From a virus: a stretch of 64,000 nt of DNA. Positions within the stretch are counted from its first letter, which is position 1. Each line of letters starts with the position of its first letter. Under the pieces are notes generated by a model. It had not been told where the DNA came from. It made no database searches and saw only the letters and a program-made list of their open reading frames with translations. This document shows, one piece after another, positions 13,232 to 23,367 of the stretch. The DNA lies in the IMG/VR virus record IMGVR_UViG_3300022540_000472, positions 28,114 to 92,113 of that record; one strand, 5' to 3'. A program made the translations under genes and the position numbers.

Positions 13232-13429
13232 GTGACAGATATTTGTAAATCTGGAAAGATTGGCGATAGCTACTCTTTTCTCATAATTGCTAACAATGAC
13301 AAAGAATTTGATATAACACTAAACACACCAACAGAACAATATACAAACAAAACAACATCATCGCAGTCAGCAGCGCTTTGGTTGGAACAAAAGATAAATA
13401 TAATAAACAACGAACAACGAGAAGAATAA
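13232..13429 (+). CDS. Hypothetical small protein (GTG start)
   Basis: A 65-residue protein starting with GTG at 13232, with GGAG nine to twelve bases upstream. The N-terminal half is strand-like (YSFLIIANNDKEFDITL) and the C-terminal half a charged helix. Its last base is the A of the next ATG (TAATGG). Unknown. Confidence 0.55.
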   Translation: MTDICKSGKIGDSYSFLIIANNDKEFDITLNTPTEQYTNKTTSSQSAALWLEQKINIINNEQREE

Positions 13430-13932
13430 TGGAAGAGAATTTACCAAGTGGGACATATGCTGCTGTCCACTTTGACGAACAAACGATAAACAAAATTCAA
13501 CAATTTATCACTGACAACAACATCCCAAATGGATTAGCCCCAAACAAGATGCACTGTACACTTTTGTATAGTAGAAAACATTTACCTGATTATGTTCGGC
13601 ATGGAGATATCAATCCACCACTAAAAGGTACGCCTACTAAATTGGAAAAGTGGCCAAGTCAGCCTGATAGCGAAGGCAACGTGTCTATGTGTCTTGTAAT
13701 GAAATTTGATTGTCCTGAATTAGTGGAACGACACAACTTTTTAATGAAAGAACATAATGCTTCATTTGATTTTGATAAGTATACTCCTCATGTTACATTA
13801 TCATATGATGTTGCAGGAATGCAAGTTAAAGACCTTTCCAACATTGAAGATACAGTTGATAGCATGACGGTTGTATATGAATATGGAGATGACTTAAATT
13901 TAGATTGGGCGAAAACAAGCACATCTTCCTAA
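13429..13932 (+). CDS. acb1: Acb1-like anti-CBASS 2H phosphodiesterase
   Basis: A 167-residue protein started at 13429, coupled to the preceding stop. It has the two HxT motifs of the 2H phosphoesterase fold: MHCTLLYSRKHL near residue 42 and PHVTLSYDVAG near residue 121, with family-like spacing. The LYSRKH and LMKEHNASFDFDKYTPH contexts match Acb1 as I know it from T4 gene 57B. Acb1 hydrolyses cyclic di- and trinucleotide messengers made by CBASS immunity. Placement among early nucleotide-metabolism genes suits an anti-defence factor. Assignment as Acb1 is from motif context, not a search. Confidence 0.8.
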   Translation: MEENLPSGTYAAVHFDEQTINKIQQFITDNNIPNGLAPNKMHCTLLYSRKHLPDYVRHGDINPPLKGTPTKLEKWPSQPDSEGNVSMCLVMKFDCPELVERHNFLMKEHNASFDFDKYTPHVTLSYDVAGMQVKDLSNIEDTVDSMTVVYEYGDDLNLDWAKTSTSS

Positions 13933-13956: not shown

Positions 13957-14394
13957 ATGTTCAAAGGATTGATATTTTTGTTGTTTTTGTTTAGTACCTC
14001 TGCAGTTGCGGTTGATTACGCAGCTATGGTTAAACAAGAAGGTAATGCTCTTGTTCTATCTGTCGGAGGAGAACGTATTGCATCTATTGATGAATATGGA
14101 CTCAAGTCGAAGAAAGTACAACAACAAATACTTGATAGAGCTGTAAAGCAAGTAGATTTTTGTGCTACAAAAGGTCGGTGGGGTAGTTCTCTCGCTGATG
14201 AAGCAAAAGATAAAATCGGTAATGTAAAATTTCATATAAATCGTTTATATGAGATGACAAAAGATATCAAGATTCCACGATATATGATCGTTGATAATGA
14301 ACGAATGATACGAGAAGCATACAGACATGGTTATAAAGACCATTATCAATTTGGAGTGCAAGTTATAAAGGATTGTCTAGTTAATGGATTTTAA
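13957..14394 (+). CDS. Exported hypothetical protein
   Basis: A 145-residue protein with a typical signal peptide (MFKGLIFLLFLF, cleavage after SAVA near residue 18). The mature part is helical and basic, with two cysteines that could form a disulfide in the periplasm (CATKG and near the end DCLV). A GGGAGAAGG ribosome site precedes the ATG. A CTAAATAT, a weak match to the late octamer, lies about 25 bases upstream. Unknown function; a periplasmic phage product could affect lysis, superinfection or the cell wall. Confidence 0.7.
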   Translation: MFKGLIFLLFLFSTSAVAVDYAAMVKQEGNALVLSVGGERIASIDEYGLKSKKVQQQILDRAVKQVDFCATKGRWGSSLADEAKDKIGNVKFHINRLYEMTKDIKIPRYMIVDNERMIREAYRHGYKDHYQFGVQVIKDCLVNGF

Positions 14395-14397
14395 TTG

Positions 14398-14435
14398 TTG
14401 ACTTTTTAGTCTCTTTGTTATATAATTTATAAATA
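14398..14435 (+). promoter_or_regulatory. Overlapping sigma70 and T4-type late promoters for tmRNA
   Basis: TTGACT (14398-14403), 17 bp, TATAAT (14421-14426) is a near-perfect early promoter. It is followed two bases later by TATAAATA (14428-14435), a perfect late octamer. The tmRNA could therefore be made both early and late in infection. Confidence 0.75.
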
Positions 14436-14800
14436 GATATATCATTGTATGAAAGTAATGAAATAGGAAGGTAACACGCGGGTTCGAATCCCGCCTTCTC
14501 CACCAAAAGCATTTTATGCGGCAGCAAAGTTTTAGTTTAGCGACTGAAAAATGGTTAGAATGAAAAAATTAGCCCGCCTAACCAGAATGCTTCTGATGGG
14601 GATGACTTGGAATCGACTATCGACTGAAAGATTACTGGACAGTGCGTCAAGTTGACCGACGTAAAAAGGGCAAAAAACTATAATTGCAAATGACGAAAGT
14701 TATGCATATGCAATGGCTGCCTAAACAGCAATAGCCATTACGGGGTTGATAAAACCTGGCAACAGAATTATCATTAGGGTAGCTTCGGCTGCCCTTTTTA
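14433..14800 (+). ncRNA. ssrA: Circularly permuted (two-piece) tmRNA
   Basis: tmRNA rescues stalled ribosomes and tags the nascent chain for degradation. Here the tRNA-like halves are in reversed order. The acceptor piece comes first: T arm GCGGG-TTCGAAT-CCCGC (14478-14494), CTTCTCC (14495-14501), A, CCA (14503-14505). The coding piece starts GGGGATGACTTGGAATCGAC at 14598. Its GGGGATG pairs with CTTCTCC at six of seven positions and keeps the third-pair G-U that marks alanine identity. The resume codon GCA is at 14686 and the tag reads ANDESYAYAMAA with TAA at 14722-14724. GGTT/AACC plus GATAA/TTATC form an H-type pseudoknot at 14744-14773. The ends meet in a 7-bp stem, AAGCATT/AATGCTT (14507-14513, 14586-14592), and the 92-base insert between them would be removed. 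The 5' boundary of the acceptor piece is inferred. Confidence 0.92.
14777..14799 (+). terminator. Intrinsic terminator of the tmRNA
   Basis: GGGTAGC-TTCG-GCTGCCC, a 7-bp stem (one G-T pair) with a UUCG tetraloop, followed by TTTTT. It closes the tmRNA transcript before the ClpP-like gene. Confidence 0.9.
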
Positions 14801-14818
14801 TTGCCTGTCATTTCTTCA

Positions 14819-14865: not shown

Positions 14866-15492
14866 ATGACATATAAATTTGAAGAAGAAGCAAACGAAAA
14901 TGAAATTAAAAAACCTTTCAAATATTACGAAAGTCCAACTGGGCAAAGAATTCATCATTTCTACATAAGTGAAAGTGTAGAAGAACCAGCTAAGTATGTT
15001 GATATGATTCATCGTATCAAAACGGCTGGACCAACTGACTTAGTTTACATCTACCTCAATACACCTGGTGGATATATCAATACTGGTATACAAATTATAA
15101 GTGCCATAAAATCATCACAGGCTCATGTTATAACAGTACTCGAAGGAGAAGTTTGTTCTCTTGGTACTCTTATATTTCTTTCTGGTGACGAATTCATTGT
15201 TCATGACTTCTGTATGTTCATGATTCATAATTATAGTGGTGGTACATATGGTAAAGGCCACGAGCAAGTTGCTCAACTTGAAGCTATGACAAGAGAATGG
15301 GGAAAATTAGCTCATGACATTTATGTTCCTTTTATTACCGAAGAAGAACTTGAACGAATTATTAAAGGCGAAGACCTTTGGATGGGTAGTGACGAAGTTC
15401 GTACTCGATTGCAGAAGATGCTTAAAACTATGGAAAGAGAAGCTAAATCCAAATTGAAGGCTGAAAAAGCTGCTCTAAAAAAGACTAAATAA
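14866..15492 (+). CDS. ClpP-like serine protease
   Basis: A 208-residue protein of the ClpP/crotonase fold. VYIYLNTPGGYINTGIQIISAI matches the ClpP oxyanion-side strand. Ser98 in GEVCSLG replaces the usual GxASM context, His121 in FMIHNYSGG fits the catalytic histidine, and Asp170 in KGEDLWMG fits the third residue. ClpP degrades proteins fed by AAA+ unfoldases. Phage ClpP-like proteins can also serve as capsid maturation proteases. The lysine-rich C-terminal tail is unusual. It directly follows the tmRNA gene, whose tags are normally destroyed by ClpXP and ClpAP, so a functional link is possible. The hydrophobic IGF/L docking surface cannot be judged by eye. Confidence 0.8.
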   Translation: MTYKFEEEANENEIKKPFKYYESPTGQRIHHFYISESVEEPAKYVDMIHRIKTAGPTDLVYIYLNTPGGYINTGIQIISAIKSSQAHVITVLEGEVCSLGTLIFLSGDEFIVHDFCMFMIHNYSGGTYGKGHEQVAQLEAMTREWGKLAHDIYVPFITEEELERIIKGEDLWMGSDEVRTRLQKMLKTMEREAKSKLKAEKAALKKTK

Positions 15493-21049: not shown

Positions 21050-22382
21050 TTCACAATACGTTAATAACGAACGAAGAGAGTATTCACTGTATGTTCTACA
21101 GATGAGAGCTATCGCAGCAATATCTGATGGACTCAAAGCAGGTGGACGTCGCGTTTTATGGACAGCTCGGAATGGTCAAAAATTTAAAAGTGCTACGCTT
21201 GCTGGTGCAACAATGCCAATCCACCCACATGCTGCACCCGAAGGAGCAATTAATACGTTAGCTGCTCCTTATGGAAATAACATTCCTTTATTAAATGGAG
21301 ATGGTGCTTTTGGTACTCTATTAAATCCTACTGCATATGGTGCCGCTCGTTACACAAGTGTTAAAGTATCTAAATTTACAAAAGATGTTATCTTTAGGGA
21401 TATCGAAATCATTCCAATGGGTGAAAATTATGATGGTACGCTTGAAGAACCAAAACATTTTCTTCCATTAGTCCCAATTGTATTATTAAACCCAAGCGAA
21501 GGGATTGCTGTTGGTTTCGCATCAACTATTCTTCCTCGTGACCTTGAAGATATAATCAATTCACAAATTGCTTATCTATCAAATAAAAAGTTTGAAGAGA
21601 TGATGACTGCATTTATGCCTACGGATAACATAGCAGTAGATTGGATGGAAACAACAACAGGAAATGTTAAATGGATATTTGAAGGTGCATTCAAAAAGAT
21701 TAATGCATCTACAATACAAATTACAAAACTTCCATATAGTGTATCACATGAAAAGTTTACTGACAATCTAATGAAGTTGGTAGATGATGGTAGCTTTGTT
21801 GTAGACTTTACAGATAGCTCCAAAGACAAATTTAACATTGAAGTTAAGTTCAAACGTGGTGCTATTGATAATACCTCCAAAAAAGAAATGCTGAAAAAAT
21901 TAAATTTAATTAATAGCGTATCAGAAAATATGAATGTTCTTGACTTTGATGGAAAATATGTTCTATCAACCAATTACATTGAAGTAATTGGTAAGTTTTG
22001 TGATTGGAGATTGAAATGGTACAAGGACCGTTACGAACGACTTGCTGAACTTCTTCATATTGACATACAACGATACAAAGACATCATAACGGCAATTAAG
22101 CGTAACGTTGGTGGGACAGCTAAGAAAATAGGGTCAAAAAATGAGCTTAAGGATTTTTTGAAAGAAATAGGAATTATTCATATTGATTATATTGCTGAAC
22201 TTCCTGTTTATAGGTTCACTGAAGATGAGAAAAATAAGGTGGAAGATAAATTAAAAGCTGCAAATATCAAGATGAAAGAGCACAAGACCCTGTTGTCTTC
22301 TGAACCTGAAAGACGTAAAATATACGTTAAAGAGTTAAGGGAAATTTTACGAAAATATACAAAAGGTGAATATAATGAGTGA
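21042..22382 (+). CDS. 52: Topoisomerase II DNA-cleavage subunit (gp52-like)
   Basis: A 446-residue GyrA/ParC-like protein, close to T4 gp52 in length and lacking the C-terminal beta-pinwheel of GyrA. ATG 21042 follows AAGGA; the in-frame ATG at 21003 is not used in this model. The active-site tyrosine lies in GAARYTSVKVSK, preceded by NGDGAFGT. SEGIAVGFASTILPRD matches the GyrA family. It works with the subunit encoded at 17057, four genes upstream. Confidence 0.93.
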   Translation: MNSSQYVNNERREYSLYVLQMRAIAAISDGLKAGGRRVLWTARNGQKFKSATLAGATMPIHPHAAPEGAINTLAAPYGNNIPLLNGDGAFGTLLNPTAYGAARYTSVKVSKFTKDVIFRDIEIIPMGENYDGTLEEPKHFLPLVPIVLLNPSEGIAVGFASTILPRDLEDIINSQIAYLSNKKFEEMMTAFMPTDNIAVDWMETTTGNVKWIFEGAFKKINASTIQITKLPYSVSHEKFTDNLMKLVDDGSFVVDFTDSSKDKFNIEVKFKRGAIDNTSKKEMLKKLNLINSVSENMNVLDFDGKYVLSTNYIEVIGKFCDWRLKWYKDRYERLAELLHIDIQRYKDIITAIKRNVGGTAKKIGSKNELKDFLKEIGIIHIDYIAELPVYRFTEDEKNKVEDKLKAANIKMKEHKTLLSSEPERRKIYVKELREILRKYTKGEYNE

Positions 22383-23367
22383 TACGGAAGACCTGCAAGA
22401 ATTTAATGCAAAAGCAAAAAAGGGCCCAAACAGGGAAGATTCGGAAGTTGAAATTTGGTCGGATGAACCTGCTATAACAGCATCACACATTGCTGAAAGT
22501 GCGGGTGCTAAAATGTGGGCAGTATATGGCAATGCATATAGTCCATGTGAGAAAGCAGTTAATGCACTTCCTCCTGGTCAATACACAATTGATGCATCTC
22601 AAGAACGTGGAATATTTTTCTCAAAGAAAGATGTTAACCTTGATGATTTAATGATTCTTCCTGATAGTGCTTCTGAGGAAGTTATTGAAGGGATTGAAAC
22701 TTTTTGGAAGAAGGAAGACCATTTCCGTAAATTTGGTTTCTTATGGAAACGTGGTGTAATGTTATGGGGTCCTCCAGGTAGTGGCAAAACTTCTACCGTT
22801 CAATTAATTTCAAAAATGATTGTTGATAGAGGTGGACTTTCCGCTTATATTCAAAATCCTGAACTTGGTGCTCGTGGTCTTGAATTGATGCGCCGAATAG
22901 AGCCTGACCGTCCTATCGTTGTCATTCTCGAAGACATTGACGCAATTGCTCAACGATACAGTGAAGCAGATTTACTTGCGTTATTAGATGGTGAATTACA
23001 AATTGATAACGTTATCTTTATTGCGACAACTAACTATCCTGAACGTCTTGATAAGCGATTAACTAATCGTCCAAGTCGTTTTGATATCGTTAAAAAAATT
23101 GGTATGCCTTCAACTGATGCTCGTCGTGTCTACATTAAAGCGACGAACAAAAGACTTGGGGGAAATGAAAACCAAGCTGAACTTGAAATGTGGATTAAGC
23201 AAACCAAACAATTCTCCCTTGCACATATCAAAGAACTGATTATATCAGTTGAAGTATTTGAAGTACCTTTGGAAAGTGCGGTTGAGCGTCTTCGTACAAT
23301 GATGGACATTAACTTAAAATCCGAAGATGGATATGATAAGAAAAGTATGGGGTTTGGTCGTGACTAA
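22375..23367 (+). CDS. AAA+ ATPase
   Basis: A 330-residue protein with start ATG 22375 after AAAGGTG. It has Walker A GPPGSGKT (about residue 132), Walker B VVILEDIDAI (about 180), sensor 1 IATTNYPERLD and an arginine-rich RPSRFD, as in classical AAA proteins of the BCS1/FtsH-like branch. It lacks a protease domain and membrane helix and has about 120 N-terminal residues of unknown fold. It is not the T4 clamp loader by motif context. It may be an unfoldase or remodelling ATPase; whether it could serve the ClpP-like protein is untested. It overlaps the gp52-like stop. Confidence 0.8.
   Translation: MSDTEDLQEFNAKAKKGPNREDSEVEIWSDEPAITASHIAESAGAKMWAVYGNAYSPCEKAVNALPPGQYTIDASQERGIFFSKKDVNLDDLMILPDSASEEVIEGIETFWKKEDHFRKFGFLWKRGVMLWGPPGSGKTSTVQLISKMIVDRGGLSAYIQNPELGARGLELMRRIEPDRPIVVILEDIDAIAQRYSEADLLALLDGELQIDNVIFIATTNYPERLDKRLTNRPSRFDIVKKIGMPSTDARRVYIKATNKRLGGNENQAELEMWIKQTKQFSLAHIKELIISVEVFEVPLESAVERLRTMMDINLKSEDGYDKKSMGFGRD

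Follow-up and report, generated by a model that had tools for sequence, protein, structure and literature searches.

A permuted tmRNA gene of betaproteobacterial affinity linked to a clpP gene in a large phage

The DNA analysed here, a window of 64,000 nucleotides that forms the last 64 kb of a 92-kb IMG/VR fragment, carries a phage-encoded permuted tmRNA gene with a gene for a ClpP-like protease downstream on the same strand. tmRNA is a ribosome-rescue RNA by which unfinished proteins are tagged for destruction. We consider the permuted identity near certain and have very little doubt that the tmRNA is functional. The best explanation, to which we give somewhat better than even confidence, is a working permuted tmRNA of the betaproteobacterial kind in a large phage with ClpP as its most likely partner, because promoter, terminator, fixed precursor stem, retained degron, betaproteobacterial affinity, linkage to clpP and an apparently intact catalytic triad all point in this direction.

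A covariance model search of the 64 kb matched positions 14443-14724 to the full length (1-213) of the Rfam model tmRNA_permuted (RF04321) with 113 bits and an E value of 3e-21, which passes the gathering cut-off of 47 bits. Independently of Rfam, ARAGORN called a permuted "tmRNA*" at 14412-14815 with the tag ANDESYAYAMAA. The alpha_tmRNA model (RF01849) also matched above its cut-off, at 14394-14776 with 95.1 bits, and two relatives from the same gene block pass the beta subtype model RF01850 (L561 with 110.2 and L557 with 89.3 bits). The one-piece model RF00023 yielded two fragments below its cut-off of 47, with 26.7 bits in the coding half and 25.5 bits in the acceptor half, and such a split into two sub-threshold fragments is the pattern expected of a permuted gene. 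A preliminary description of this DNA had proposed a phage-encoded permuted tmRNA and named a higher-scoring one-piece model as a result that would refute it; with RF00023 far below RF04321, the proposal stands. That a one-piece tmRNA, or a tRNA with a chance tag, was mistaken for a permuted gene has practically no probability left: we found no point in support of it, and with 26.7 bits for the best one-piece fragment against 113 bits it is already refuted. The features of the locus are listed in Table 1.

Table 1. Features of the permuted tmRNA locus and the following clpP gene (window positions)
Feature	Position	Strand	Basis or remark
Sigma-70-like promoter, TTGACT-17-TATAAT	14398..14426	+	11/12 consensus; start predicted at ~14433
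Acceptor piece (upstream half)	14433..14505	+	RF04321 alignment, sequence; 5' end predicted
P2 5' strands, acceptor piece	14443-14448, 14454-14459	+	
T arm	14478-14494	+	
Acceptor 3' strand CTTCTCC	14495-14501	+	
Discriminator	14502	+	
Encoded CCA	14503-14505	+	
Intervening sequence, 92 nt, predicted to be removed from the precursor	14506..14597	+	Stem register in phage set; RNA fold
9-bp stem	14507-14515/14584-14592	+	
C, then TGAT, preceding GGGG	14594-14597 (TGAT)	+	
Coding piece (downstream half)	14598..14775	+	RF04321 and alpha_tmRNA alignments; 3' end predicted
Acceptor 5' strand GGGGATG	14598-14604	+	
P2 3' strands, coding piece	14631-14636, 14639-14644	+	
Hairpin CGTC/GACG	14645-14661 (strands 14645-14648/14658-14661)	+	Covariance model
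Tag reading frame ANDESYAYAMAA + TAA	14686..14724	+	ARAGORN, covariance alignment
3' motif CCTGGCAACAGAA	14755-14767	+	
Intrinsic terminator AGGGTAGC-TTCG-GCTGCCCT + T run	14776..14800 (hairpin 14776-14795)	+	
ClpP-like serine protease, 208 aa, triad S98/H121/D170	14866..15492	+	

The CCA-ending acceptor half lies upstream of the coding half, which begins with GGGG. The strands GGGGATG and CTTCTCC form six of seven acceptor pairs with a mismatch at U6-U67, the G3-U70 pair of a tRNA-Ala-like acceptor is present, and the T stem GCGGG/CCCGC closes the loop TTCGAAT at 14483-14489. The six pairs with G3-U and this T loop had been reported in the preliminary description and can be read in the sequence, and the tag it gave was recovered by both methods named in Table 1, in a frame that starts at the resume codon and ends in a ClpXP-type degron and the stop TAA. 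Its placement of GTAAAAAGGGCAAAAAA directly before the resume codon was wrong, as CTATAATT intervenes. Of the H-type pseudoknot it proposed, only the first hairpin (CGTC/GACG) is backed by the covariance model, and the second stem is putative.

The gene has a promoter and a terminator of its own, as had been suggested, with the promoter just upstream of the range then assigned to the gene. Promoters of the TTGACN-TATAAT type occur five times in the window against an expectation of 0.47, similar TTGAC-n17-TATAAA boxes are found 5' of the tmRNA in the relatives, and a terminator follows the tmRNA in most of them. A candidate late promoter of the T4 type (TATAAATA, 14428-14435) was rejected as a chance match, with seven occurrences in the window against nine expected.

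In this class of permuted RNA, a stem generally connects the CCA end with the GGGG start. In the window it had been given as 7 bp; the stem exists, but comprises 9 bp. Of 181 phage permuted tmRNAs with a spacer of at least 20 nt among the matches listed, 162 share this register with a stem of 7 bp or more, which begins at most three bases from the CCA and leaves 4 nt, or sometimes 5 or 6, between itself and GGG. The mean stem score was 21.9 for real and 7.0 for shuffled spacers, and when the 5' flank of one RNA was combined with the 3' flank of another, 22% of the pairs reached a score of at least 15 versus 93% of the true pairs. TGAT stands directly 5' of GGG in 146 of 186 cases among the matches listed. 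The phage set was picked by a T-arm pattern, so that loop counts are partly given by construction; the stem and TGAT counts are not. The same register is common to all six betaproteobacterial sequences discussed below, and 10 of 29 alphaproteobacterial ones have 5 bp or more. In a free-energy fold of the precursor, acceptor stem and spacer stem form one long hairpin, and the spacer stem probably keeps the two halves together until processing. This stem may already be described in the literature, of which we searched the open-licence papers.

To place the RNA among bacterial permuted tmRNAs, we compared it with sampled proteobacterial genomes. The permuted form is present in 263 of 289 genomes of the alphaproteobacterial class, and all 35 parsed sequences carry ANDN tags and none a TTCRANTC loop (0/35). 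The window RNA has neither an ANDN tag nor an alpha-type T arm, though its RF01849 score passes. In the betaproteobacterial order, seven of 200 genomes contain the permuted form; one of these (L546) is alpha-like, and the other six all combine a TTCRANTC loop with an ANDE tag (ANDEHFAIAA, ANDERFALAA in two, ANDENFALAA, ANDESYALAA and ANDENFAMAA). Four of 369 genomes of the gammaproteobacterial class exceeded the cut-off of a permuted model, one of them strongly. ANDE tag, TTCRANTC loop and a stem starting from the CCA are shared by all six betaproteobacterial RNAs and the window RNA, and the tag pairing that had been called odd is therefore odd only in comparison with alphaproteobacteria. The likeness to the betaproteobacterial permuted tmRNA (RF04321; RF01850) extends to the leading acceptor half, the degron and the 4 nt between stem and GGGG, which read TGAT in three of the six. 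The window differs in its 92-nt spacer, compared with 24-42 nt in the six, and in scoring 77.8 bits with RF01850, under the cut-off of 84, against 95.1 bits with the alpha model. In a maximum-likelihood tree of the mature RNA without the tag, the alphaproteobacterial sequences all fell into a single clade (support 100). The window RNA grouped with the betaproteobacterial sequences (support 96, SH-aLRT), as did every phage sequence, including the tmRNA of the Xanthomonas jumbo phage XacN1; the window branch is long, and placements within the beta side lack resolution. We therefore rejected an alpha-type origin: the RF01849 score exceeds that of RF01850, yet T loop, tag, precursor stem and tree are beta-like. 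A one-piece phage tmRNA (L007:4998-5386) has the tag ANNDNYAYAMAA, which resembles ANDESYAYAMAA despite the different gene form.

Permuted tmRNAs in phages are already known. In a survey from 2022, 53 of the 133 distinct structures of phage tmRNA were permuted, 50 of them from marine or aquatic phages (PMC9004378), and a tmRNA database of 2025 holds 79 sequences from phages, all forms taken together (PMC11915505). In IMG/VR, three pattern scans gave at least 249 permuted ARAGORN calls with at least 125 distinct tag strings, and at least 134 distinct phage tags once those linked to ClpP are added. In view of the 53 of 133 structures and of these tags, the gene cannot be called unusual for a phage, as it had been. 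Among the matches listed, 112 of 134 distinct phage tags keep the hydrophobic-Ala-Ala end of the degron, and all 15 ClpP-linked tags end in hydrophobic-A-A or -V-A. The pattern with a 71-100-nt spacer was found at 85 places in 84,980 species genomes, and ARAGORN called only three of them permuted. Two of these calls look spurious and coincide in part with one-piece genes. The third, from Comamonas odontotermitis (L461), has a 29-aa tag identical to that of a viral contig (L233), from which we conclude that it is probably a prophage gene. In this sample, then, the long spacer is nearly confined to phages. The methylophage Melnitz and pelagimyophages likewise carry a permuted tmRNA close behind a promoter, but in Melnitz a glutamine riboswitch adjoins it and a transcription-coactivator gene comes next, whereas the neighbour in the window is clpP (PMC9004378). 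A Melnitz-like glutamine riboswitch was considered for the window; no riboswitch exceeded the Rfam cut-off there.

The DNA polymerase shares 46-47% identity with its counterparts in XacN1, a distant relative that infects Xanthomonas, and in the Stenotrophomonas phages CM1 and RAS14. At the DNA level, named phages gave only short, uninformative matches. Upstream of the tmRNA lie, in this order, genes for thymidylate synthase, NAD ligase, a 157-aa protein, DHFR, an Acb1-like protein and a 145-aa protein, and downstream those for ClpP, primase, an SprT-like protein and topoisomerase II. The Acb1-like (anti-CBASS) gene at 13378-13932 is found upstream of the tmRNA in many relatives and is a possible counter-defence neighbour. 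XacN1 and RAS14 have ligase, ClpP and primase genes in matching order with no tmRNA between them, and RAS14 gave no tmRNA match over the cut-off. XacN1 does contain a permuted tmRNA with 123.2 bits and the tag ANANTFDYALAA, at AP018399.1:37231-37530 and 356026-356325, where the record is without annotation. With a DNA polymerase 47% identical, XacN1 falls into the broad group of the window phage. Its tmRNA shares with that of the window the permuted form, TGAT before GGG and the tag end ALAA, but is present in two copies, adjoins tRNA genes (L148, AP018399.1 36200-38600) and lies away from clpP. The copies are 318.8 kb apart and probably represent terminal repeats. Neither SmpB nor the ClpX zinc domain was found in the 92-kb record, itself a fragment, so that host SmpB and a host unfoldase would be needed. 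An AAA ATPase of unclear type at 22366-23367, matching PHROGs of unknown function and, weakly, clamp loaders, is a potential unfoldase candidate. Outside the window, ARAGORN found nine tRNA genes in the record, one with the suppressor-like anticodon CTA (L548:16351-16426).

The ClpP gene sits among replication genes. Its product matches PHROG 1827 (ATP-dependent protease, E 4.8e-62), which scores far higher than the head-maturation protease PHROGs, as well as Pfam CLP_protease and a solved ClpP structure in the PDB (E 7e-14). S98, H121 and D170 are invariant across 23 relatives. An AlphaFold model (pLDDT 87) has E. coli ClpP chains as best fold matches (about 160 residues, TM 0.64), several of them from ClpXP bound to ssrA-tagged GFP. 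With the ClpP fold predicted and the Ser-His-Asp triad present, the phage enzyme looks catalytically intact. Phage KVP40 has a clpP gene of the same PHROG amid replication genes (40% identical), but directly after DHFR and with no tmRNA between.

All five tmRNA-pattern loci with a strong ClpP match have clpP just downstream on the same strand; they represent four kinds of phage, with L018 and L110 belonging to the same kind. When IMG/VR was searched with a ClpP profile and without regard to tmRNA, 80 loci were obtained. In 24 of the 27 closest (L550-L576; 44-71% identity to the window ClpP) a tmRNA was present, identified by ARAGORN in 16, by Rfam in seven (L557, L559, L560, L561, L569, L574, L575) and by its tag ANDSVYNMQMAA in L550 (ClpP 71% identical), where the contig begins inside the tmRNA. 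All 24, about 18 of them distinct, are permuted and lie upstream on the same strand, with DHFR and Acb1 upstream in many of these loci and primase downstream in most. Among the 53 more distant loci (L577-L629), ARAGORN found a tmRNA in three. A second ClpP subfamily, located near the gp59 loader in T4-like phages (L710-L789), is accompanied by a tmRNA in 55 of 80 loci, or in 51 of the 56 whose sequence extends 2 kb or more upstream; all are permuted and lie 0.9-2.6 kb upstream on the same strand. In two loci examined, a cell-wall hydrolase gene stands between tmRNA and clpP. The role of this subfamily is less clear, since its best PHROG is a head maturation protease despite a strong Pfam CLP_protease match. 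On one of these T4-like contigs, a gene for a TctC-type tricarboxylate-binding receptor lies directly upstream of the permuted tmRNA (L712:642-1544). As a control, thymidylate synthase (thyA) loci had a tmRNA nearby in three of 80 cases, two of them in the same block. These locus counts are non-independent and partly redundant, and we give no p-value. IMG/VR queries with the single ClpP protein or with a degenerate DNA pattern of the tag gave no usable matches. We found no report of a phage tmRNA-ClpP link in the open-licence literature, and this company looks new.

It is established that tmRNA matures by RNase P and 3' processing, that G3-U70 directs charging with alanine, that trans-translation depends on SmpB, and that ClpXP recognises a hydrophobic-Ala-Ala end. 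From the gene order, the predicted structure, the conservation and the linkage described above, we infer the following course of expression, processing, tagging and use of host SmpB and phage ClpP. Host RNA polymerase would transcribe a single precursor from the tmRNA promoter, in which acceptor stem and intervening-sequence stem would form a continuous hairpin joining both ends of the tRNA-like domain. Host RNase P, cutting before GGGG, and a 3' nuclease, trimming after CCA, would excise the 92-nt spacer, so that two RNA pieces remain, held together by pairing in the acceptor and P2 helices. With the help of the host's alanyl-tRNA synthetase (acting on G3-U70), EF-Tu and SmpB, the RNA would then be loaded onto stalled ribosomes, which would append ANDESYAYAMAA and terminate. 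Tagged proteins would pass to a ClpXP-type protease, whose peptidase the phage ClpP would most likely supply or boost together with a host unfoldase. Synteny suggests the partnership between tmRNA and phage ClpP, and we rate it as slightly more probable than its opposite.

The permuted tmRNA could also work alone, boosting host rescue during infection or standing in for a weak host tmRNA while host ClpXP degrades the products; the phage ClpP would then serve another purpose and its gene be a neighbour by descent. We regard this as a serious possibility, although one with a probability clearly under one half. The gene is a complete, self-contained transcription unit with a terminator between it and clpP, many phage permuted tmRNA loci from the pattern scans showed no ClpP, the XacN1 tmRNA lies away from clpP, and the KVP40 clpP adjoins DHFR with no tmRNA between. 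Moreover, conservation extends over the entire block thyA-DHFR-Acb1-tmRNA-ClpP-primase and the loci are partly redundant, so that the linkage is possibly inherited synteny. On the other hand, the pair turns up in two ClpP subfamilies with widely different sequences and gene neighbourhoods, and the tmRNA always comes first, on the same strand. That two lineages of large uncultivated phages link a permuted tmRNA to a ClpP of their own, and that the phage would thereby provide both tag and peptidase and redirect ribosome rescue and protein turnover in the course of infection, is a proposal we hold tentatively, at a little short of even.

Two further readings deny the RNA a tagging role or any role in the phage. 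A decoy, which would titrate the SmpB of the host or block its trans-translation, has a reported precedent in the tRNA-like-only tmRNA of mycobacteriophage DS6A (PMC4131195; PMC11915505), but unlike DS6A the window gene has an intact tag frame, stop and degron, and the tags of its relatives vary in sequence and length and mostly keep the degron, which makes a decoy very improbable. Slighter still is the probability that this is a host gene which was captured recently or is decaying and serves no function in the phage: the U6-U67 mismatch would fit decay, whereas promoter, terminator, precursor stem and position are conserved across divergent relatives.

The fixed precursor stem provides a simple rule for finding and annotating permuted tmRNA genes, which public records overlook even in a named phage such as XacN1. 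As to why phages carry a tmRNA, upkeep of the hijacked translation machinery or selective degradation of host proteins was proposed for Melnitz, with no partner gene (PMC9004378). The tmRNA-ClpP pair favours a role in degradation without proving it, and its conservation offers a concrete two-gene hypothesis. If this hypothesis is true, these phages would own a tag-and-destroy pair.
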